Position numbers and translations under genes: made by a program. Under the pieces are notes generated by a model. That model made no database searches and had not been told where the DNA came from. It worked only from the letters and a program-made list of their open reading frames with translations. From Heterotrichella gracilis (Eukaryota; Sar; Xanthophyceae; Tribonematales; Xanthonemataceae): DNA of 28,791 nucleotides. The DNA lies in the NCBI GenBank assembly GCA_032358255.1, contig JAULBX010028460.1, forward strand, positions 1-28,791, given 5' to 3'. Positions 16,295 through 28,437 of the stretch are shown here, piece by piece. Numbering within the stretch: the stretch's first letter is position 1; each line of letters begins with the position of its first letter.

Positions 16295-16465
16295 TCACGA
16301 GGCATACACAGGCCTGACAAGGGACTGGCACTTTTTTCCGCAGCGGGGGCAATCCGCCGGGGGGTTGTTGGCGTTACCACACCCGGCGCACAGTATCCAG
16401 CACATGCACGGCACAGACACAAAGCTGGTGTGCGTGATCCGGCCCTGCTTGGCGCACTCCATGCA
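16295..16465 (-). other. C-terminal RING domain with an all-cysteine ligand set
   Basis: The spacing is C-x2-C-x15-C-x-C-x3-C-x2-C-x9-C-x2-C, then a hydrophobic tail ending in RPVYAS. In IAP/MUL1-type terminal RINGs the central motif is PCGH; here it reads PCMC, so the usual histidine is replaced by cysteine. All eight ligands are present, so zinc binding should be kept. Confidence 0.75.
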
Positions 16466-19400
16466 GCGCTTGCTCTCGGGTACCACGGGCGGCGGCGGGG
16501 GGGCGGGTGGCGCCACTGGAGGTGTGGCGGGGGGTGGCGGGCGGGGCGCTGCCTGGGTTACTGTGGGCCTGAGGGCCGCCCCCATGGGGTTGTATGCGCG
16601 GACGCCGGGGTTGTAGGGGGCGCGCGCGGCCGCCACGGGTGGTGGTGTGGACACCGTCGGGCGCATGGATGCTTGCGCCACGGGGGCGCGCACTAGGGTA
16701 GTCTGCGGCTGCGCCCCAAGGACCACAGGGGGCCTGGGGTTCGCCTTTGCGGCAGCGGTTGGTGAGCCTCTGAACATCACCGGGGGCTGTGGTGGGGGGC
16801 GTGTGGTGGGTGGTGACGTCACTGGCGGCCTGACCGGGGGTGGCGCGGTGGGGGGTGCCGAGACCGGCGGCCAGGGTGGTGGGGGTGCGGGTGGTGCCCC
16901 CACCGGCGGCTTGGGTGGTGCGGGTGATAGGGCGGTGGTGGTGGTTGACACTGGTGGCCTCCCCGTGGGGAACAGGTGCGCAAACATGTTTGACAGCAGG
17001 GGGGCTGGCTTGCTGGTGGAGGCTGCGGGTGGCTGGGGGGGTGGACGAGACGAGGCCGCCGATGGCGGCAGTGGTGGTGGAGGTCGAGGTGGGGGTGCGG
17101 CGGGTGGGGGGCGCGCATTTGCCACTGGGTGTGCTGCTGCGGGGGGCCTTGCGTGGCCGTTGGCGGCTGGTCGTGGTGGCGCTGCATGAGGGAAGACACA
17201 GGATTAGGGTTTGAGGTTGAGGGTCTTGGTAATTTTGCGGGGCCGTTGGCTGGCCGTGGTGGCACTGCATGCATGAGGGACCACAATGAGTTATAGGTTG
17301 ACTGCTCGAGAGTTTAGGGCTGAGCTTGGTTGTGGATGTGTGGGGATGCAACCAGGCACATGGGGGTAAACGGTGGTGCCCTAGCAGAAAGACTGCCAGC
17401 TAGTTCCACGCCTGTGCACATGGATGCATTGGGGTTGCGCATTGTAGGGCTTAGGGCTTAGGATCCACAGTTTAGGGTGTAGGGGCATGATGTACTGCAA
17501 AACAGCTGCGTACCCGGCAGGGGTGGTCGCCTGGCCACATCGAGCTTAGACTTTATATCAAATTTAGGGTTCAGGGGTCAGGTTACCCTAAAATCCACCC
17601 TGCGTACCTGGCGGGGGTGGTCGCCTTGCTGCCCCTGCGAACGAAAACTCCTGCTGGTGCTGCGCCTGCTCAATGGCATGCATGTGCCTGGTAGCCTCCC
17701 TGCAGAGTGGAAGGTGTAGGGTTTAGGGTTTAGGGTTACCAGGGCATGCATGTCCTGGACGCCATCCCGGGAGAACTGCTGCTGATGCTGCGGGCATGCA
17801 GAAGTACAGGGGTGTTTTAGCACACCTGTCTGTTTCCAGCTGCAGGCTCCTTGCAAACTCCTCATCCGCCTGCTCCTGCTCCATGCGCCTCGCTGCATCC
17901 TCTGCTGCCAGCCGCTCAGCAACCTCCCTCGCAGCCTGGGGTTGTACAGGGCACTTTAGGCACAATCTAGGTACAATATGAAGACACTCTTGAGTCCGGT
18001 GGAATGTCAGCGCTTCAATCAACTGTAATGGAGCTGATCAAACCTTACAGTGTGATTCCAGCCCCTGCGACGAGTCTTAGATTAGCCCGGTGGGTCAGCG
18101 CTTAAATCAACTGTTTTAGGGTTTAAGGCTTTAGGGTTTAGAGTTTAGGGTTTAGCTGATCAAACTGTTCAGTGTGATTCTAGCCCACTGCGACGAGTCT
18201 TAGATTGGCCCGGGAGTGGGCAGACTGTTGCAAGGGTTTCATTGGCGCTTGGCAACGCGTTGGGCCCAATGCGTGCTATAGAATTCCATAGCCCGTGAGG
18301 TTGGGGCTGGGGTAGATAGAGTGGTGACTCGTGTCCCAAGCCCACCGCTGCTCACCGGCTGCAGCGACGTGGTCCACCTGCCTCAGCTCACCACACTGGG
18401 AATCAACGTTCAGATGCTAGGCCAGGGTTCAGGGTTTACATGTAGTGTTGATTCACGCCTCAAACTCACCCGCTGCTCCTCCTCCTCCTGTTCCCTCACC
18501 AGGTGCAGCTATAATGCCCACCCGCCTCACCCCACCAGATGTAGGCTTTCCAGTTCAGATGCCAGGCCAGGGATTAGAATTTTGATGCAAAACTCTTGAA
18601 TTTGGGTGAATAGAGTGTTAATAGGGTTTATAATGCCAAGAGCAACTCACCCGCTGCTCCTCCTTCTCCTTTTCGATCACCAGGTGCAGCGACGAGGTCC
18701 ATCCGCCTCAGCTCACCAGATGTTGGGTTTACAGGTCAGATACCAAGTCAGGGTGTAGGGTTTGGCTTTAGGTGAATACAGGGTTCATTTATGCATCAAA
18801 CTCACCCGCTGCTCCTCCTTCTCCTTTTCAGTCACCAGGTGCAGCGACGAGGTCGGTCCACCCTGCGCCTCAGCATCCACTGGCCCAAAGCCATTCGCCA
18901 GTCTGGCTACAGCTGGGGTGTCTTCCACCGAGGTCGGGGAGTGCGGGCATGAGGGGTCTGTGGGTAAGGAACAAGCGAACACATTTTATTCGTCTCCTTT
19001 TAAATCAAATATCAAAGCTTCAATCTAAGTATAGTGGTTGGATAGTGGAATACGACGAAGGATCCAAAGCAAGTCCAGGGGTGCATCGGTGAGGGAGTCC
19101 TCATTGTTGCATTAATTGTACTTAATGATGAGGTGCGTTGGCCTTACAATGACTCGATGATTATGATTATGGCATGTCCTGGGGAAGGCCTGGAACACGC
19201 CACTAAGCGCACCCTACATGGCAACAATTGTATTTGTATAATCACATATATCATAATGATGCATCCCCCTGTGTCCCTACCCTAGGTCCCCAGCAGGTCC
19301 TCCTCCCTGTGCGTGGGGGTCAGCGCCCATGCCTCTTGTATGAAGACTTTATACTGTATACTGTTTTTATAGTATAGAGTATATGTTCTATAAGTTCTAT

Positions 19401-21683
19401 ACTGTATATTGTTTTTATAGTATCTATATGTTCTTTACTGTATACTTCCTTTTATACTACAGAGTATAGAGTCTTTCATGAAGACTCTATACTCTATACT
19501 GTTTTTGGGCGAGGCCAGGATCACAGCCACTAAGCGCACCATGCCAATGGCTGCAATTACATGCCTACTAATCTCTGCGATTCCTACCAATTACTGCGAT
19601 CACGATTATGAACTTTTCATCTCCATTCCAACCTACCCTGGGTCCCCAGCGCATGCTCTCCCCTCTGTGGGGGTCAGCGCCCATGCCTCTTTTATGAAGA
19701 CTCTATACTGTTTTTGGGCCAGGCCGGATATAAGCCACTAAGCGCACCATGCCAATGGCCGCATTACATTCCTACCAATCACTGCGATCATAATTATGGA
19801 CTTTTTATCCCCATCCCCCCCTACCCTTGATCCCCAGCGGGTGCTCCTCCCGCTGCGTGGGGGTCAGCGCCCTGGGCGATGCCTGGAACACACCCACTAT
19901 GCGCACCAAACCACCAAACCACTGGCTGCGATTGAGTCTGTAATTGCGCTCCCAATCATGATAATGATTGTGATCACAAATGCATCCCTACCCTTGATCC
20001 CCAGCGGGTGCTCCCCCCGTTGCGTGGGGGTCAGCACCCTAGGCGAGGCCTGGAACACCGCCACTATGGCGCGCATCTCCTGGGGGGTGTAGTGCTCCTG
20101 GACGAGGATGGTGTTGTCCACGGGGTTGCGGTGCAGGTGCTCGATGAACTCGACCTCGCTCTGGCTCCACTTCTCGAGCGGCCTGCGCATGTGGTGAGGT
20201 ACCATCAGTACTTTCAAAGACAAAACTGGTGTCACACACAGCCCCTCCAGCGGGCGCGCCTCCGCTTTGTACCCGACTGCACCGCAAGCAGCAGCCCCGC
20301 ACCACATCCAGGCCCTTGACCAGGGTTTAGGGTTTGTCTAGGGTTTTCAGAACGAAGTCCCGCTTACCTGAAGCACATCTGGTTGGGGGATTGCGCCGCG
20401 GCCCGGTTCCTGATCGTCACGTCGGCATCCGTGGTCACCCACAGACCCTCCAAGGTGCGCGCCTCCGCGTTGTACAGCAGCAGCGCAGTGCGCACATCCA
20501 GGCCCTTGTTCAGCTTGCTGCTGAAGTGGTTGATGGCCAACATGAACATGGGGTTGTCGCGGTACACGCGCAGATGCTCCTCGTTGGTGGCAATCACCTC
20601 GCCGCCGCCGTCGAACTCGAAGCGTGCGGGGTCGGGCGCAGGCGCGCTGGAGGCGCGGCTCAGCTGCCTGCACAGCGGTGGGGTTTTTCTAAGGGGTTTA
20701 GGGTTTAAGGTTTAGGGTTGATGGTCAGCATGAACATGGGGATTTTCGCGGTACAAGCGCAGGTGCTCCTCGTTGGTGGCAATCACCTCGCCGCCGCCGT
20801 CGAAATCGAAGCGTGCAGGGTCGAGCGCAGGCGCGCTGGAGGCGCCGGATACCGCCCGGCTCAGCTGCCTGCACAGGGTTAGGGTAGGTTTTGTTTTAAA
20901 CCGAGTTTATCAGAGTGATCTCAGCAGGGTTAATAAGGGGTGATTTTAGGGTTGTAGCGTGGGGTGGAATAGGGTTGCTTGCAGCTCGAGGGCACGGGGG
21001 CATATCAGGGCCTGTAGCAGGGTCCTTGCCAGTGGTGGCAACCACATCGCTGCGCCACCCGCCCTTGCAGACTGCTTGGGCAATGCCGCTCCCCACCCTG
21101 CCACCACTCACATCGAGAGCACAAAGTTCCTGCCAGCAACGCACAGCGAGGGAATCCTAGCCTCTGTTTGGACCTCTAAACCAAAACCCTTGTTTTGGCA
21201 AAGTAAACAACACCTTTGTCTATGGCAAACCATTGCGGGCACGCCCCCACTGCACAGCGCAAGGGCTGGTGGTGTGAATATCGGGATTGCTCACCTGGAT
21301 CCTCCCTCGTTGATCGCCTGCCCAAGGCCGCCCGCTGCCCTGCCGCCACTCCCCGCCGAGGTCGAAGGCACAAACTCCCTTGCGGCAATAGATAGCGCCG
21401 GCATCCTAGATGGCACAAACTCCTATTATTATAATTATTATTATTCAAAATCATCATCATTATTAGAAACTTGTTTAGCTTTTTCGGTAGTAAATGTGGG
21501 GCCAATGTGGCTCCATTAATTCACAGACTTTTTAGTGAGCGGGGTGACTTCTTTAAGCGCCTCCAACAGTCTCGCGAGCCCGGGTTGGCTCTTTAAATGT
21601 GACTGTCAAATAATCTTGTAATCTTGTAACCTTGTAATTATTATTATTATTACAAGCATACCGGCATCCTAGCAGGCACAAAC

Positions 21684-21720
<37 letters not shown>

Positions 21721-24700
21721 AAGCATACCTAGGTGGCACAAACTCATTTGCAGTACCCGAAAGCGCGGCCCGACCCAAGCTGCCCCCCTGGGAAGACCCT
21801 GGCGAGGGTGTGGCGTGCGCCTGCTTGCCCTCCGCCACGGCAGCCGCTGTTGTGGGTACGTTGATGGGTTGTGTGCGGCGGGTGGGGGATGGGGCGGTGG
21901 GTGGCGGCTGGTGGTGGTTGCGTGGGGATGCGGGTGGGGATTCGCCGCCCAGGCGTTTCAGCTCCTGGGATGTGGGCAGGCGCTGCATGTACTCCACCAC
22001 AATCTTCTTGTTGCCGATGGTGCGGTTGTCGTTCAGGGTCCTCGACTGCAGCAAGGGTTTGGTGGTTAGGGTTTAGGGTCTTTAACTCCACCACGATCTG
22101 CTTGTTGCCGATGGTGCGGTTGTCGTTCAGGGTCCTTGACTGCAGCAAGGGTTCAATGGTCAGGGTTTAGGGTTTTTAACTCCACCACGATCGTCTTGTT
22201 TCCGATGGTGCGGTTGTCATTTAGGGTCCTTGACTGCAGCAGGGATAGAGGAAAATGATGCTTTACTAGTTGGTAAAAGTAGTAAAGCTTTACGGCTTTA
22301 AAATTTAACAAAGGAGGGGATTCAGGGGTTTAGGGCTTAGGGTCTGTTGATTCCACCACGATCTTCTTGTTGCCGATGGTGCGGTTGTCATTTAGGGTCC
22401 TCGACTGCAGCAGGGGTTCAAATGTAAGGGTTTAGGGTATTGACTGCAGGTAGGGTGAAGGGTTTTGGGCTCTGGACTGCAGCATGGGCATGATGGGGAA
22501 TTCAACATACTGAGTTTTACAGGTAGGATTGAGCAGGGCCCTTTTGAGGCGCACCATGTAGGGTTCAGCAAAGGACTGTAGGTTTTCTGAAATAGGGTTC
22601 AGAAGGCGCAAGTATGGTTCAGGAAATAGGGTAAACTTTACCACAATTCATCCATTCTACATTGCCCATGTTTGTTGGTGGTTGATAACACAGCAACTAA
22701 CTGTTTGCCATTATCATTACTTACTTCCCGTTTTGTTGTTTAGTATTGCCATTTCGAGAATCTGCACAATAGAATGAAGCTAGATTTGAATTCAATGCAT
22801 GCCCCGCACCAGCATGGCGTGCTCCTTGCCCGTGTCGTCCCCCGCAAAGGCCACCACCGCTGCCTCCTGCACCAGGTACATGTGCACGCTCTGCACAAGC
22901 AGCTCGCCCTCAGCGAAGAACCTGCACAAGTGAGGCTTTTATTCAATATTGCTAAGGATTTGAATATGTAATTCATACCTTTATTAATAATAAACCTTGA
23001 AAAAATGTAAGTGTACGTTCTGCATCCGAAAACATTCTATGCATTAATTGCCAACGTCGTTACTCTACATCAAGCACCCCAAAACAGGCAGATTAGTTTT
23101 CGTAATATGAACTCGATTCAATTCTATTTTAGTACATTTATGTAAATGAGGATATTGTTCTTTTAAGCACCGACCTGCGCAGCTTCCTCTCGGGGTTGCC
23201 CTGTTAAGAATTTAGTATTTAGTATTTAGGGTTCAGGGTTTAAGGGTGAAGAAGTATGTGCACTGACCTGCGCAGCTCCCTCTCTGGGTTCCCCGCCATC
23301 TGCAGCGACCTCACATCCAGGTTGCTGACCAGCAGGAAGGGGGTGACGGTAGGGTCATTCACGTCTGAAGCAGGGGGGGGAGGGCAATGAGGGGGGGGAT
23401 AATATTTTTAACCACAGGGAAAGGGAAATAAGGTTGCTGACCAGCAGGAAAAAATCACGATGCTCTATGTTGCAATCGTAGCGCCAACTGCCCGCCTGGG
23501 ATGGCGCATGGTCAACCTCGCCACGTCATATCGGGACAACATGATTCCACCACCTGTGTCTAATTTCGACAAGGTGCAAGGCGCAATGAAGAATTTGCAT
23601 GAACGATGAATGAATTGTTTTGCCACCCGCGTATAGCCTAAGCCAAACCGTTTAGGCATATGTACGCACCAACAACTGAGATGCATGAGCACCCGGTGCA
23701 GAGGTGGCCACCTCCAGACACCATAAACACAGACCCAAACCCCTAAACCCTTGACCCTAAACCTAACCCCGCTTGCAAATTCCCGCACCAACAATGAGGT
23801 CCCTGAGCAGCTGGTGCAGCGGGTCAGCCTGGAAGATGGAGATGCCCCGCTGCGGCAGGCGATGGCGGCTTGGATGCTGGGGAACACCTTGGAGTTGTAG
23901 CCCTAAACCCACAACCCCTTACAAACTAACAATGGACCCCTCACGCACTAGCAGTAACCCCCTCACGCACCGACGATGAGGTCCCTGAGCAGCTGGTGCA
24001 GGGGGTCTGCCTGGAAGATGGAGGTGGCAGGCATGGCAAGCGGCCCATTGCCCCCTGCGGCAGGCGGCGCAGCATGGATGCTGGGGAACTCCCTGAAGTT
24101 GTTCCCCATCTGGGGTGCGCGCGCGGGCGCCTGGGGATGCGCCAGGTCCCCATCCACGTCCTCTGCAGATACCATGTGCCGCAGCGCGTCCTCCTTGCGC
24201 CGCATGTCTGCCAGTGGGGTGACCCCCACAAACTGGTCCAGCCGCATCTTCATGCCCTTGGCTTTCTTCTTGTTGGGCTGTGGCAAGCAGGCCAAGGTGA
24301 GCACGATGAAGAGTAAAGGAAAAAAGGGGGAGCATGCAACCTAAGGGCTAGACCAGCCATTGGATGTGTTCAGGGTTTAGGGTGTCCTCCTTGAGCCATG
24401 CACGTACCCCAAACCTCTCATACCCCAGACCGCGCAGCCATGCAAAAGCGCCCACCTTGTGTAAGGCTGATTGATGATCTGACTTTCTTGCCGACATGCA
24501 AGTAATACATCATTAAAGCGCCCACCTTGTTTTTGTCGTCGATGATCTCCGCAGCCTTGCGCGGGCCCTCGGGCTGCTTCTTCTTCTTCTTCACAGCAAA
24601 CATCTCATCCCGGTCCTCCTTCTGGTGCAGCACAAGCCTCTCGGAGTCAGGCAGGGCATGCGCGTGCTCCTCAACCGCGGCGGGGGCGGGGGGCGTCTCA

Positions 24701-27700
24701 GCGGGGTCCTGTAAGAAAAGTTAGGTTTCAGTGGTTAGGGTTCAGGGTCCAGTGTTCATAATTTTACGTTCGTCGTTCAGGTCTGGGGCTCGGGGTTCTG
24801 TGTTAAGACTTTAGGTGTGGGGCCAGCTTGTCGGTGTCAGTAACAAGGTCGGCAAGGGTTGTGAAACCCTAAACCCTAAACCCTAAACCTCCCTGGGTTA
24901 GGTTTCCTCCCACTATGTGCGCAATACCTTTGCGGCGTCTGCCCTGGAGGGCGGCCTGCTGGTACCTTGAGTGAAGGAGGGCTCCCCCACAACCTAAGGA
25001 CGCACGGTGTGTGCAAGCAATGCTGCTGACCAGGATAACGTAATCCATACAACAACAGCATCGTGTGCATTACCTTTGCAGCATCTGCACTGGTGCCGGG
25101 TGCGAGGGAGGGCTCTTCCACAACCCTGTCCAGGAAACCCATGGTGTCCTCAATATCTGGGCCCTGCGCCTTGGCCTGCGCTTGCTTGCCCTTGCTAGCC
25201 AGGGATTGCTCAGCGGCAGCAGATTCCTTCTTCGCTGGGATCCCCGCGAGAGGCGCGGCTGCGGGCATGGGGATGACGGGACAGTCAGGCCAAATGGGAT
25301 AAAACTGGTAGGGGTTTAGGGTTTGGGGTTGAAGTGTTCGATTTAAGGTACATGGTTTACAAGTTAGGGTTTAGGGTGTAAAATTCACCTGGCTCTGCAG
25401 CCGCCTCCCTGGGCTCCCTGTCCTTCCTCCCCGTCTTCTTGACCTCCTTCTCCTTCTTCCCCTTCCAGGCTACAGCATGCGGGCGCTCCTCCACCGTCGC
25501 ACCAGCCGCCGCACCAGGCTTTGGAGGCTCCACGGGGCCATACACCACGTAGTTCACGTCCCCGTTTCGGTTCACAGACGTGATGTAGCCGTCGCACCCT
25601 TCCGTGATGCACTGGAACCATGTGGCTGCCTGCATGTGGCAGCGAATGCATGTGGCTTAGCACCTGTCACCTGCGTGCTCAATAGTGTGCTGCATGAGAT
25701 GTCCATGTGGAGGCAGATGCAGTATTGATGGTGTATATAAGTGTCTGGTGCATGGGAGCTCCTGGCTAGCCCAGCCCCCAACGCTACAACATGAGAGGCA
25801 GCAGCAGCCTGGATGATACATACAAATGTGCCTGGATGTGCTGTATCGATACCAAGGTGATGCATCCTTTGCATCCCTCTGTGATGCGGCTGACCCACAT
25901 GATCACTTGACCATCTAGTGATTGAATAGGAGAGACAGTGATGAGGTGTGAAATGAGGTCATGTAGCCACACCCTTCTGCAATGCAATGGAACCACATGG
26001 CTGCCTGCTTGTGGTGGTAAGGCATGTCAGTAGATATGTCCATCGCCTGCATGCCCTCGAAACGAATGCATGGCATGCCTATGCAGTCAGCCCTGCATTT
26101 AACCAGGATAGCATGTGGATAGTGGCATGCAGGTGCAGGGAAGAACAAAAGGCAACAAGCACACATGTTGCCACCATAATCACTTGTTCCATGAGGCTAC
26201 CTTCTTGCCGCAGAAGCCCCCCGCTAGGTGGTACTGCGGATCAAGCTCCTCCTTGACCTTCCTCCAGCATGACAAGTGGTAGTGGAAGGAGCAGCCAGCG
26301 TTGCATTTGACCTCCACGCGTGCCTCGTTGGCTGCCAATGACACAAGCCCACGCTCACAATCACCGCAAGGACCGGCAAAGAAGTGCAGCAGGGATGAAT
26401 TATGATAACAAGGAGACGTACTTCGTCCCTGCCGAATCATAACACTCCAGGGATGATAGTAAATACTAATGGTTTGTCACATGGAGACAGGGGATGACGA
26501 CTAACACACTTTGGTGCTTGCCCTGCAAGCTTTCCCTTCCTTTCTACAAATGTCCAGCACACACCAGCACACACCTACCCACCCACAGCACAACCATCTG
26601 AGACCAGCCACAGCACATGCCACTCACATTTCACTTTGTAGTGGTCCTCGGCCCTGGTGCAGCGCAGGTTGTTCAGAACCCCTCGCAGCGCACAAGTCCC
26701 GATGTCCTCAGCATCGTCCTTGTGCTTGTCCTTCTCAATCAAACCCATTTCTTTCCTGAGCCTCTCCATCTCCCTGTCACAACATGAACATGCTTGTTGC
26801 CAGTTTCAATTTTGCTTTCAAAGGTTGATGTATCAGTGCCAGGGCCTCAGCAATGTGCCCTGACATACAGTGCCACCCCTGTTCATATATTGGTATGCTG
26901 AGCATAATACCTTGAGATCAAGTCAAAATTGCTCCTTGCCAATCAGGTTACTACAGGGAGCCTACTTACAAACAACTTAACGAAAGGCATTCCCAGCCAT
27001 CATCGGCTCATTGCCTTGGCGGTCCCCCCTGGCGGGCACGCATTTTGGACACTAAATCCACAATGTCATGACTCGTAGAGTGAGTAAAAGATGCCTCGCA
27101 GGCTAGAGACATCAGAGAGCTCACTTACGCTTGCTGTTGCTGCAGGTACTCCTCCCCAGCGTGCCTGGCTTCAGCTGCCTCGCCCATGGGCTCCTGCTGG
27201 GGTACCTGTGTGTCCATGGCACAAGGTCAGGTTGGGTGGAGACAGCAAGGACACTCTTGCCAGAGGATACAGGACCTATTTGGTACTGGACCATGGGTAC
27301 AGGGCCAAAGGGATTAGGGTACAGCGTACAGGGTACAGGACTAACGGGTACAGAGCTAGAGGGTACACGAACAAAGGGTACAGGACCCTAGGGTACAGGG
27401 TACAGGACCACTGGGTACCTGTCTTCGGGGCCTCCACGGCTTGTTCTTCTTGGGCTTTGCAGCATCCTCGTCACTGGATGAATCCTCTGAGTCCTGTCAC
27501 AGGGCAAGGTTAAGGGTTAGCCTCGCTGATCTTGCAAACAGGGATGTGTGAGGAGGCAGGGGCAAGTTTCAGACAGCTGGGTGCAGGCACACGTACCCCA
27601 TCAAAGCCACCGTTTGCTTCTCCCTTGCCACGCTTGCCTCCCTTGGCCTGGTTCTTCTTGTTGTCTGCAGCAAGGGGTGAAGGGTGCCACTGTCAGCAGC

Positions 27701-28437
27701 ACAGACAACCCAATTGCGTGATCCAGGGAAGACGGCTGCTGTTACGCAACAACTTGGCACCGGCACTCTTCAGCACCAAATGGGTCATGCATGCACCTGC
27801 TAGTGGGGCATGCATGTGGGCATGCAAGTGGGCATGCACTCTTCACCTGCAAGTGGATGACCTTGTATGCACCAAAGGGTAAAAAACCTGCAAGTGGGAC
27901 ATGCATATGCCCCTGCCCACCTCCCGGCAAGAAGTCATCGTCGTCTGAGTCCTCATCATCCCCATCCCCAGGGAACTTCCCAGCTGGAGCTCCCTGCTGC
28001 TTTTTCTTCTTTTTCTCCTGCTTCTGCTTCAGCTTCTCCTCCAACCTCCGCTCCTGCCTGCTTGCCTTCACGGGCTTGGCAGCCCCTCTGGCCCCAGCGG
28101 CAGCTGGAGACCTGCCTTGGGAGGGTCCAGCAGCTGGCAGCTCATCCTGCTCAAAGTCGCTCTCGCTGGAGATTGAGGGGGCCTCCTCGTCTGACGAACG
28201 GATCTCGTTGTCGGAAGCCAAGGAGGGCATGCTGGCCTCGTCATTGCCTTCACCGTCAGAGTCTTCTGCTCCTTCATCTGGGATGTCTTGGTCTCCATCT
28301 GGGTCGCTGGCCAGGCTCCCAGGCTCGCTTCCCTCGTCTCCATCCTCGCCAGATTCAGAGCCAGAGGTGTCTAAGCTTTCGGGCTCCGTTTCATCTTCCG
28401 ATGGGCATAAGCTAGGCAAGCTCTGACACTCTGACAT
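16295..28437 (-). CDS. RRM-, DCD-like- and RING-containing probable E3 ubiquitin ligase, 20 exons, 1432 aa
   Basis: Exons: 28437-27921, 27664-27597, 27493-27419, 27205-27129, 26773-26628, 26331-26201, 25629-25389, 25258-25074, 24708-24526, 24277-23971, 23364-23268, 22921-22810, 22045-21729, 21405-21295, 20667-20368, 20182-19992, 18957-18806, 17935-17826, 17699-17608, 17181-16295. All introns are GT-AG, all phases match, and the sum is 4299 nt. Residues 1-170 are acidic and Ser-rich and end in a Lys/Glu helix. Residues 300-355 carry zinc-type ligands (KCNAGCSFHYHLSCW, then CITEGCDGYI), resembling TTC3/DZIP3. Residues 652-733 fit an RRM (FLLVSNLD, ERELRRFFAEG, AVVAFAG, KKIVVEYM). Residues about 880-956 are DCD-like (ALLLYNAEARTLEGLW ... 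PNQMCFR). Residues 1058-1125 are helical with DEEFARSLQLE (UIM-like). Residues 1138-1370 are proline-rich. Residues 1377-1432 form a C-terminal RING. RING and zinc region point to ubiquitin transfer, the RRM to RNA. The assembly is strong; the DCD and TTC3/DZIP3 assignments are from memory of motifs. Confidence 0.8.
17232..17275 (-). repeat. Partial 5' copy of exon 17181-16295
   Basis: ATGCAG followed by TGCCACCACGGCCAGCCAAC mirrors the true acceptor region, ATGCAG then CGCCACCACGACCAGCCGCC. The copy lies in the intron just upstream of the exon and keeps the AG. Confidence 0.8.
17505..17537 (-). repeat. Partial 3' copy of exon 17699-17608 with donor
   Basis: GGCGACCACCCCTGCCGG before GTACGCAGC repeats the true exon end (GGCGACCACCCCCGCCAG before GTACGCAGG) about 85 bases downstream. 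Another partial relative of the same exon, with a GTAACC donor, is at about 17740-17795 on its upstream side. Confidence 0.75.
17717..17738. repeat. Interstitial TTTAGGG tract
   Basis: Three consecutive TTTAGGG-type units lie between exon 17699-17608 and the copy of it at 17740-17795, that is, at a copy junction. Confidence 0.8.
18028..18215. repeat. 58-bp direct repeat around a telomeric tract, intron only
   Basis: AGCTGATCAAACCTTACAGT and the following GTGATTCCAGCCCCTGCGACG... at about 18031-18090 recurs at 18154-18213 with few changes. A degenerate TTTAGGG tract (18114-18155) lies between the two copies. No exon sequence is included. Confidence 0.8.
18345..18720 (-). repeat. Three tandem copies of the 3' end of exon 18957-18806
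   Basis: Copies of the exon end (GAGGAGCAGCGG before GTGAGTTTG) with the preceding CACCTGGTGA lie at about 18648-18720 and 18469-18540; a more decayed one lies at 18345-18400. Two keep a GTGAG donor. The copies share intronic sequence (CAGATGCCAGGCCAGGG-like), so the repeat unit spans the exon-intron boundary, with a period of roughly 130-180 bases. Confidence 0.85.
19175..19908 (-). repeat. Three tandem copies of the 3' end of exon 20182-19992 with donors
   Basis: The block that on the plus strand reads (T/C)CCCCAGCGGGTGCTCC...GTGGGGGTCAGC(G/A)CCC recurs at about 19290, 19640 and 19830 in addition to the true exon end at 19992. Each has TACCC where the true donor (GTAGGG on the minus strand) lies. 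Units are about 150-350 bases apart and include CACTAAGCGCACC (true exon: CACTATGGCGCGC) and intronic sequence. Two of the copies also carry ATGAAGACTCTATACT-type AT-rich sequence, expanded at 19340-19505. Confidence 0.85.
20221..20325 (-). repeat. Internal copy of the DCD-like exon in the following intron
   Basis: AAGGGCCTGGATGTG, then GCGGAGGCGCGCCCGCTGGA and GGGCTGTGTGTGAC, mirrors exon 20667-20368 sequence encoding KGLDV...AEARTLEGLWVT. The copy is frame-broken. A TTTAGGG tract (20322-20345) joins it to the true exon end. Confidence 0.85.
20731..20877 (-). repeat. 5' copy of the DCD-like exon (20667-20368)
   Basis: The first roughly 135 bases of the exon, including the acceptor (GTGCAG before GCAGCTGAGCC), are repeated upstream with few changes. 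The copy has a 15-base insertion and ends in a TTTAGGG-type tract at 20697-20717 before the true acceptor. Confidence 0.9.
21041..21165 (-). repeat. Diverged copy of exon 21405-21295 in the following intron
   Basis: CTAG then GATTCCCTCGCTGTGCGTTG, and further TTTGTGCTCTCGATGTGAG and GGTGGCAGGGTGGGGAGCGG, matches the true exon (CTAG then GATGCCGGCGCTATCTATTG, TTTGTGCCTTCGACC, GGCGGCAGGGCAGCGGGCGG). The copy has a stop in the corresponding frame. Confidence 0.7.
21655..21720. repeat. Copy of the exon 22045-21729 3' end plus a TTA microsatellite
   Basis: On the minus strand TTTGTGCCTGCTAG repeats the exon end TTTGTGCCACCTAG. Between them is an uninterrupted ATT/TAA microsatellite at about 21685-21718. 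A second TTA-rich stretch is at 21424-21450, just before the next exon. Confidence 0.75.
22082..22490 (-). repeat. Array of acceptor-plus-exon copies of exon 22045-21729
   Basis: CTGCAG followed by T(C/A)(G/A)AGGACCCT... and AACCGCACCATCGG(C/A)AACAAG, GTGGTGGAG is repeated at about 22082-22146, 22176-22242 and 22343-22415, all with the AG intact, upstream of the true acceptor at 22045. Two shorter relics (GACTGCAG) follow at about 22440 and 22478. TTTAGGG tracts sit at 22066-22080, 22160-22172, 22326-22340 and 22425-22437, one at each junction. Confidence 0.9.
23171..23212 (-). repeat. 3' copy of exon 23364-23268 with donor
   Basis: CAACCCCGAGAGGAAGCTGCGCAG before GTCGGTGC repeats the true end (GAACCCAGAGAGGGAGCTGC, GCAG before GTCAGTGC). 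A telomere-like tract lies between (23214-23245). A 20-base fragment of the same exon (TTCCTGCTGGTCAGCAACCT) also lies upstream at about 23431-23450. Confidence 0.85.
23775..23895 (-). repeat. 3' copy of exon 24277-23971 with donor
   Basis: The last roughly 110 bases of the exon (TTCCCCAGCATCCA..., CTGCACCAGCTGCTCAGGGA, CCTCAT) are repeated downstream, ending in a GTGCGG donor. The copy has an internal deletion that breaks the frame. CCCTAAACCC-type tracts lie on both sides (23735-23770 and 23901-23907). Confidence 0.85.
24448..24490 (-). repeat. 3' copy of exon 24708-24526 with donor
   Basis: AGATCATCAATCAGCCTTAC then ACAAG before GTGGGCGCTTT repeats the exon end (AGATCATCGACGACAAAAAC then AAG before GTGGGCGCTTT) about 75 bases downstream. 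Confidence 0.8.
24864..24890. repeat. Interstitial CCCTAAA tract
   Basis: Three to four perfect CCCTAAA units lie next to the copy of exon 25258-25074. The tract is in the opposite orientation to most TTTAGGG tracts of the window. Confidence 0.85.
24918..25012 (-). repeat. 3' copy of exon 25258-25074 with donor
   Basis: GGTTGTGGGGGAGCCCTCCT and, after a short insertion, GCAGACGCCGCAAAG before GTATTGCGCA repeats the true end (GGTTGTGGAAGAGCCCTCCC, GCAGATGCTGCAAAG before GTAATGCACA). Confidence 0.85.
25308..25378. repeat. Two short TTTAGGG tracts downstream of exon 25629-25389
   Basis: GGGTTTAGGGTTTGGGG at about 25312-25328 and AGGGTTTAGGG at 25366-25377 lie in the intron between exons 25629-25389 and 25258-25074. 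Confidence 0.75.
25832..26025 (-). repeat. Two 5' copies of exon 25629-25389
   Basis: Translated, the copies read QAAMWFHCIAEGCGYMTSFH (about 26016-25955) and QVIMWVSRITEGCKGCITLV (about 25905-25840), against QAATWFQCITEGCDGYITSV at the true exon start. The two CxxxxC cysteines remain only in the first copy. The true acceptor CATGCAG is not kept intact before either. The copies lie in the preceding intron. Confidence 0.85.
27206..27418 (-). repeat. Intron with nine repeated GTACCC words matching its own donor
   Basis: The intron between exons 27493-27419 and 27205-27129 starts GTACCCAGTGG. It contains eight further GGGTAC (plus-strand) words at irregular 8-20 base spacing. The exon after its acceptor begins GTACCCCAG. 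Both boundaries therefore read ACAG|GTACCC, a direct repeat across the intron ends. Confidence 0.8.

Follow-up and report, generated by a model that had tools for sequence, protein, structure and literature searches.

Why should the introns of one gene repeatedly carry degraded copies of the edges of their own exons? The question is raised by contig JAULBX010028460.1 of Heterotrichella gracilis (Xanthophyceae; assembly GCA_032358255.1), a stretch of 28,791 nucleotides hereafter denoted the window, and by a gene on its minus strand in which we modelled 16 exons by hand (a to p, running from 26773 to 16295). The reading that we favour, with a probability of roughly 0.6, is a recurrent, direct local duplication which spans exon–intron junctions and arises through break repair, with the exon as the usual donor and the copies as passengers.

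Exon-edge copies in the window gene

Copying of exon edges into their own adjacent introns is confirmed in the window gene by two tests. In local alignments of each exon with each intron, 12 of the 30 adjacent exon–intron pairs reached the cut-off score of at least 30, compared with one of 210 non-adjacent pairs (Mann–Whitney p = 3.6e-7). When boundary-spanning queries were aligned with the remainder of their own intron, 17 of 30 exon edges lay at the shuffle floor (p ≤ 0.003); the match of the exon c 3′ edge, with 14 bp and a score of 23, is likely to be trivial, and the 16 edges scoring at least 28 come from 12 of the 16 exons (c, d, e, f, g, i, j, k, l, m, o and p). An earlier note on the window, made from its sequence alone, had likewise claimed copies for at least 12 exons, counting 20; four further exon-like segments called upstream by a gene finder (27128–28230) would, with exons a to p, make up that total.

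Each of the intervals listed in the earlier note holds a copy, at positions agreeing to within a few bases (Table 1), although at 25832–26025, where several copies were described, one was recovered (25955–26014). The labelling of copies as 3′-edge or 5′-edge is mostly right, but some are pieces that stop short of the edge (15 of the 64 in the wider sample described below); in the window these derive from exons g (23431–23450), k (20231–20318) and o (17771–17792), and the exon e copy is short. The copies of exon i between 22085 and 22404 form a tandem array with a 94 bp period; in exon m the unit is repeated in tandem, with the intron side repeated too in the first two copies, and the first copy of exon l reaches 19819 in the boundary query. 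A copy of the end of exon i (21406–21422) abuts exon j, and the frame requires its AG, from which we infer that it has been recruited as the working acceptor of exon j.

Occurrence and geometry of copies across the assembly

The draft assembly (68.5 Mb, 903 contigs) was sampled at 20 stretches of 10 kb and 10 kinesin loci of 4 kb, and later at 10 more stretches of 4 kb. Exons were predicted by a self-trained gene finder, which took the window gene as its seed and the sampled loci for retraining; it recovers 11 of the 16 hand-modelled exons exactly. Loci with GC ≤0.45 (L003, L012, L015 and L037) were dropped, as were L001 and L002, which had been fetched by search; L008, L024 and L031 had no gene models and were counted as intergenic, and the 86 kb intergenic set is therefore loose. 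Low-complexity alignments were filtered out, as were those with many telomere motifs. Thresholds were picked while the first loci were viewed and were applied unchanged to the later 4-kb stretches.

A first scan, over 17 loci with GC >0.45, found a copy within 1 kb for 31 of 189 exons, against none of 189 control flanks. Across 46 gene models, the window gene being taken by hand, 49 of 340 introns hold copies, 64 in all (introns below 60 bp are counted in that total and 321 were searched). Kinesin homology supports 31 of the predicted exons, and 3 of these have a copy scoring at least 32. In the later stretches 4 of 42 introns hold copies, nine in all, six of them edge copies and all six being 5′ edges lying upstream. 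The earlier note was right that a single duplication is insufficient, and in pointing to a local process that recurs, because many genes in the sampled assembly carry copies. It had proposed that a scan could refute the pattern; run on the sample, this found intron interiors and intergenic DNA poorer in copies than exon edges.

Local repeat pairs within 1.5 kb, over the 46 gene spans, are direct in 113 cases and inverted in 3. The 64 copies comprise 27 of 3′ edges lying downstream, 22 of 5′ edges lying upstream, and the pieces short of an edge; the rule that a 3′ edge is copied downstream and a 5′ edge upstream is thus followed by all 49 edge copies, and by 6 of 6 in the later stretches. Windows centred on a junction have an intronic copy in 48 of 532 cases (9%; 24 donor, 24 acceptor). 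On the exon side the counts are 44/511 at −20, 27/476 at −40, 8/437 at −60 and 0/237 at −140, and on the intron side 9/485 at +20, 7/517 at +40, 2/537 at +60 and 10–15 of 439–555 from +80 to +180, so that the signal peaks sharply at the junction and is down to about 2% at 60 bp on the exon side and at 20 bp on the intron side; inverted controls gave 0–2 per position. Source and copy are mostly shifted by 80–360 bp, with the shifts random modulo 3 (23, 22 and 19). Copied exon pieces measure about 18–129 bp, and edge copies lie 29–793 bp from the matching exon with 60–1021 bp of intron beyond them.

Decay of the copies and their splice sites

The copies look like non-coding passengers, drifting and shedding splice sites about as fast as neutrality predicts, since they carry frameshifts and stops, their insertion lengths are random modulo 3, and their splice dinucleotides are retained at the neutral rate. 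Compared with their exons they show 343 mismatches and 32 indels, 28 of which break the frame and four of which keep it; the frame is broken in 24 of 64 copies, and 9 of 64 contain an in-frame stop. GT or AG is retained in 39 of the 49 edge copies, with 38.6 expected under neutrality. Mismatch rates at codon positions 1, 2 and 3 are 0.075, 0.083 and 0.183, and the ratio of position 3 to positions 1 and 2 is 1.9 in the 24 broken copies, where a neutral copy compared with a constrained exon predicts about 1.7; heterogeneity over all copies was not significant (p = 0.28). Retained copy splice sites score like used sites, and the suggestion in the earlier note of tolerated, competing splice sites fits these scores and the neutral rate of retention.

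Could the copies instead be functional, as alternative exon parts or as decoy splice sites under selection? Retained copy sites as strong as used ones would suit this proposal, as would the raised synonymous share in copies with an open frame (2.7), a kinesin copy whose 5 changes from its exon are all at third positions, and an AG within 4 bp of the start of the downstream copy in 22 of 36 cases (61%, compared with 39% at control positions). Strong second splice sites, however, occur at the control level (acceptor score of at least 1 in 4 of 36, or 11%; control 10%), and the broken frames, random insertion lengths and neutral retention of GT and AG described above point the other way. A splicing function of the copies is not supported, and we consider selection for one quite improbable. 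A reading as cassette exons was rejected on the same second-site scores and frame breaks, with the bare AG standing above control, and the second-site scores also make a reading as stwintrons unlikely. Open copies may possibly be under some constraint, or may have inherited a synonymous difference.

The same comparisons bear on whether the copies are an artefact of assembly, in which overlapping allelic pieces were left unmerged and placed end to end. A repeated exon edge followed by differing intron is the geometry that unmerged overlaps would give, and the assembly is a draft whose contigs include bacterial-looking ones. Against this, every one of the 49 edge copies differs from its source, so they are not k-mer overlaps; the excess of mismatches over indels, together with the codon-position bias, is not that of read error; the 24 broken copies are not functional alleles; and arrays reach five copies, with no Ns in the window or in the 20 10-kb loci. 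We therefore regard an artefact as very improbable. Diverged haplotypes that recombined are a possible alternative source, and should leave two authentic splice sites, each with a different intron; the synonymous difference seems too small for introns to have become unalignable, and for the single exon searched the assembly contained no other complete copy.

Junction bias and survivorship

Duplication within an exon is usually harmful, and one spanning a junction can survive, so that some bias towards edges is expected. If local duplication struck at random everywhere, edges could stand out through the lethality of within-exon events and through the conserved exon, which keeps its copy recognisable as intron–intron and intergenic pairs decay fast; survivorship alone then yields the one-way rule. 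The test is the number of intron-only events. We observed 49 copy-bearing introns against 8 independent intron–intron pairs, or 31 when the 23 set aside as dependent on an exon copy are counted; the later stretches contributed 1 independent pair, and the 86 kb of DNA outside gene models held 3 direct pairs and as many inverted ones.

Random duplications that decay neutrally were simulated using the actual gene structures, and the edge events detected per intron-only event were counted. The ratio was 0.2–1.0 under neutral decay, 0.2–1.4 for equal decay overall and 0.3–5.0 at other settings. With introns decaying two to three times faster it was 0.7–5.0, which comes near 49 introns to 8 pairs, and intergenic pairs would vanish likewise; the observed excess is approached only if intron decay outpaces that of the enclosed copies about threefold. 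Equal decay does not reach even 49 to 31, with the dependent pairs included. The copies moreover share these introns and look neutral, so that their slower decay needs a cause of its own. Exon pieces are also shorter than random duplication predicts (10th, 50th and 90th percentiles of 31, 48 and 68 bp, compared with about 34–39, 79–85 and 153–164 bp simulated from the observed shifts), an argument weakened insofar as the gene finder may call longer copies exons. We think random duplication a possible but doubtful account.

An edge bias beyond simple survivorship is supported and is real in the sample, yet fast intron decay could carry much of it. Its cause may be either that junctions are prone to breaks, or that copies persist as the conserved exon keeps them recognisable or re-templates them. 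A mutational process directed at exon–intron junctions in the present lineage, affecting about one in 11 of them independently of survivorship (for example with splicing or transcription making junctions break-prone), is a tentative proposal which we would not expect to hold.

A putative route through break repair

Junction-spanning duplication through break repair, our preferred reading, would proceed as follows. A recurrent process, acting in genes across the sampled assembly, would generate short direct duplications spanning the exon–intron junction; the likely route is a DNA break, followed by fill-in of staggered ends or copying from a sister and then by end joining, sometimes with the addition of filler DNA. 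With the two ends of the duplication falling in exon and intron respectively, the exon would be left intact and a spare edge with its splice site would come to lie inside the intron, a geometry that leads to the one-way rule. The copies would then drift as non-coding passengers, their splice sites being lost at about the neutral pace. Consistent with this, more than 30 bp of intron flank is repeated in 18 of 49 edge copies. In one five-copy array (L006) each pair of copies shares 0–1 changes, as if each copy had been made from the exon or re-templated by it.

Several observations weigh against this reading. The intron side aligns over 12 bp or less in 26 of 49 edge copies, and decay at the rate of the copy predicts that 39–46 of 49 intron sides should be mostly alignable where 12 of 49 are (at least 60% of their length); among young-looking edge copies the figure is 6 of 18. 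Intron sides are too rarely alignable for plain tandem duplication to suffice, and filler, later insertion, re-templating by the exon or far faster intron decay has to be invoked as well. The youngest copy in L006 is not the nearest one, and the arrays of exons i and l in the window and of L018 share some changes among their copies. The codon-position ratio of the 40 open copies exceeds the neutral value of about 1.7. In the first scan 1 of 35 hits was to the wrong edge (in L017, where the copy itself is called an exon by the gene finder), and the edge copies of the later stretches are on the acceptor side only. The break-repair route is itself inferred.

Three candidate contributors were tried and set aside. 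Gene conversion from the exon would cluster mismatches, yet clustering is mild (mean percentile 0.614 over 54 copies). For mobile filler, two intervening segments were searched in the assembly as an introner check; one is unique, matching itself alone, and the other has in addition a single partial match (65 bp, 82%). Telomere-like sequence was considered as a cause. Heptamers of the AAACCCT type (rotations, both strands) are the most enriched intron 7-mers in the window gene and the loci with GC >0.45; AACCCTA occurs 139 times in introns where about 9 are expected, its intron density of 1.31 per kb comparing with 0.34 outside gene models and 0.11 in exons. Loci with a higher density of the motif have more frequent copies (Spearman 0.63, p = 0.0007), also when compared in bins of length (p = 0.007). 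Within loci, however, no such link was seen (p = 0.46, or p = 0.096 when length halves are used), and copy junctions are only slightly nearer to a motif than random positions (mean rank 0.434). The motif is treated here as a companion of the copies.

The host gene and its genomic setting

The reading frame of the window gene is open through every junction of the 16 hand-modelled exons and ends at a stop. Its predicted protein has a TTC3/DZIP3-domain match of 25.8 bits, just below the family cut-off of 26.9 bits; a homologue search, in which 7991 candidates were scored, gave none at E ≤ 0.001. Exon p contains two tandem 39-bp units (13 codons; 16850–16926), an in-frame duplication inside coding sequence. 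The intron between exons i and j holds a perfect TTA microsatellite of 12 copies (21684–21719), and a TGG-type array occupies positions 1–222 of the window, at the start of the contig stretch.

The assembly contains 43 chlorophyll a/b-binding matches, so that its source is a photosynthetic eukaryote. Three of the dropped loci (L003, L012 and L015; GC 0.33–0.37) carry long, intronless, bacterial-looking reading frames, indicating that the assembly is not from a pure culture; L037 (GC 0.26, 40 telomere-type 7-mers in 4 kb) is unlike both the algal-like and the bacterial-looking loci. The loci in which the gene finder called no exon (L008, L024 and L031) have GC 0.48–0.50, and L024 and L031 hold kinesin matches; they reflect either other codon usage or another organism.

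Table 1. The window gene, its exons and the exon-edge copies in its introns (window positions; fractions are identical over aligned bases; p from shuffling).
Feature	Position	Strand	Evidence
Host gene	16295–26773	minus	Frame open across junctions to stop; 11/16 exons by gene finder
Exons a–d	a 26628–26773; b 26201–26331; c 25389–25629; d 25074–25258	minus	Hand model
Exons e–h	e 24526–24708; f 23971–24277; g 23268–23364; h 22810–22921	minus	Hand model
Exons i–l	i 21729–22045; j 21295–21405; k 20368–20667; l 19992–20182	minus	Hand model
Exons m–p	m 18806–18957; n 17826–17935; o 17608–17699; p 16295–17181	minus	Hand model
Exon c 5′-edge copy	25955–26014	minus	Score 60, p ≤ 0.003; 41/50
Exon d 3′-edge copy with donor region, two matched pieces	24917–24994	minus	24959–24994, 28/36; 24917–24947, score 37
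Exon e 3′-edge copy with donor, short	24445–24460	minus	Score 32, p ≤ 0.003
Exon f 3′-part copy, internal gap and frameshifts	23781–23898	minus	96/107 at 23791–23898; boundary query to 23781
Exon g internal-piece copy, upstream	23431–23450	minus	20/20
Exon g 3′-edge copy with donor	23167–23201	minus	Score 50; 24/27
Exon i 5′-edge copies with acceptor (three)	22085–22139; 22179–22233; 22352–22404	minus	52/55; 49/55; 50/53
Composite copy, exon i 3′ edge and exon j 5′ edge	21637–21691	minus	Scores 57 and 44
Exon i last-17-base copy, abutting exon j and giving its acceptor AG	21406–21422	minus	16/17
Exon j degraded copy	21081–21109	minus	23/29; p ≤ 0.003
Exon k 5′-part copy with acceptor	20716–20885	minus	121/129 at 20716–20845; boundary query reaches 20885
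Exon k internal-piece copy, downstream	20231–20318	minus	64/74
Exon l 3′-end piece copies (five)	19819–19901; 19637–19682; 19508–19532; 19281–19328; 19178–19205	minus	70/77; 38/46; 22/25; 40/48; 25/28
Exon m 3′-end copies (three), intron between	18644–18707; 18470–18509; 18352–18387	minus	52/57; 36/40; 34/36
Exon o degraded piece, upstream	17743–17792	minus	19/22; score 30
Exon o 3′-edge copy with donor	17506–17535	minus	Score 45, p ≤ 0.003
Exon p 5′-edge copy with acceptor	17235–17271	minus	Score 49, p ≤ 0.003; 27/29

Relation to known systems and significance

The earlier note knew of no named system of this type. The wider kind, local duplication through break repair, has been named (PMC2671141, PMC8355091), whereas a bias to exon edges is unnamed in the literature that we found. 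No description of genome-wide intronic copies of adjacent exon edges was found among titles and abstract openings, a weak negative given that subscription papers mostly lay outside the search. Capture of sequence during repair, with filler, is known from vertebrates. In a report on human break repair with local capture (PMC2671141), 4 of 824 donors are partial exon/intron sequences, with an exon captured in opposite orientation; that system resembles the present one in its short local copies, breakpoint filler, and partial exons with splice sites near their source, and differs in that exon edges dominate here and orientation is nearly always direct. Fill-in and end joining by CST–Pol alpha-primase makes small tandem duplications (Schimmel et al. 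2021, PMC8355091), and patch-mediated breaks are described in rice (Vaughn and Bennetzen 2014, via PMC7407515). As far as the available parts of these papers go, both involve direct, tandem or partly tandem local duplications and nearby breaks on opposing strands, as would be the case here, but they describe no preference for exon edges, and it is by analogy that their enzymes may be considered here.

Two further systems touch introns directly. Intron creation (2010, PMC2891723) also has an exonic duplication near splice motifs that yields intronic sequence, but there the copies form the ends of a new intron, whereas here an existing intron lengthens with the copies inside it. In Lipomyces stwintrons, which are nested and spliced in two steps, there is a donor duplication of 4–7 nt, for which the repair of an asymmetric break has been put forward as the origin (PMC7138796); the donor region is duplicated in both cases, but the exon pieces here are longer and no strong second site rises above control.

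With about one in seven introns of the sampled gene models carrying a datable copy of its own exon edge, the assembly offers many replicate events, which can serve in measuring the rate of duplication, the decay of unused splice sites and the tolerance of competing ones. Intron lengthening and the origin of spare splice sites have mostly been inferred from rare cases, and the copies show one route by which introns grow. If the junction bias is mutational, splicing or transcription would be linked to where DNA breaks are misrepaired. Were the process truly directed at junctions, it would drive intron growth in one direction and keep spare splice sites in constant supply, a supply already illustrated in that a copy of exon i appears to provide the acceptor of exon j.

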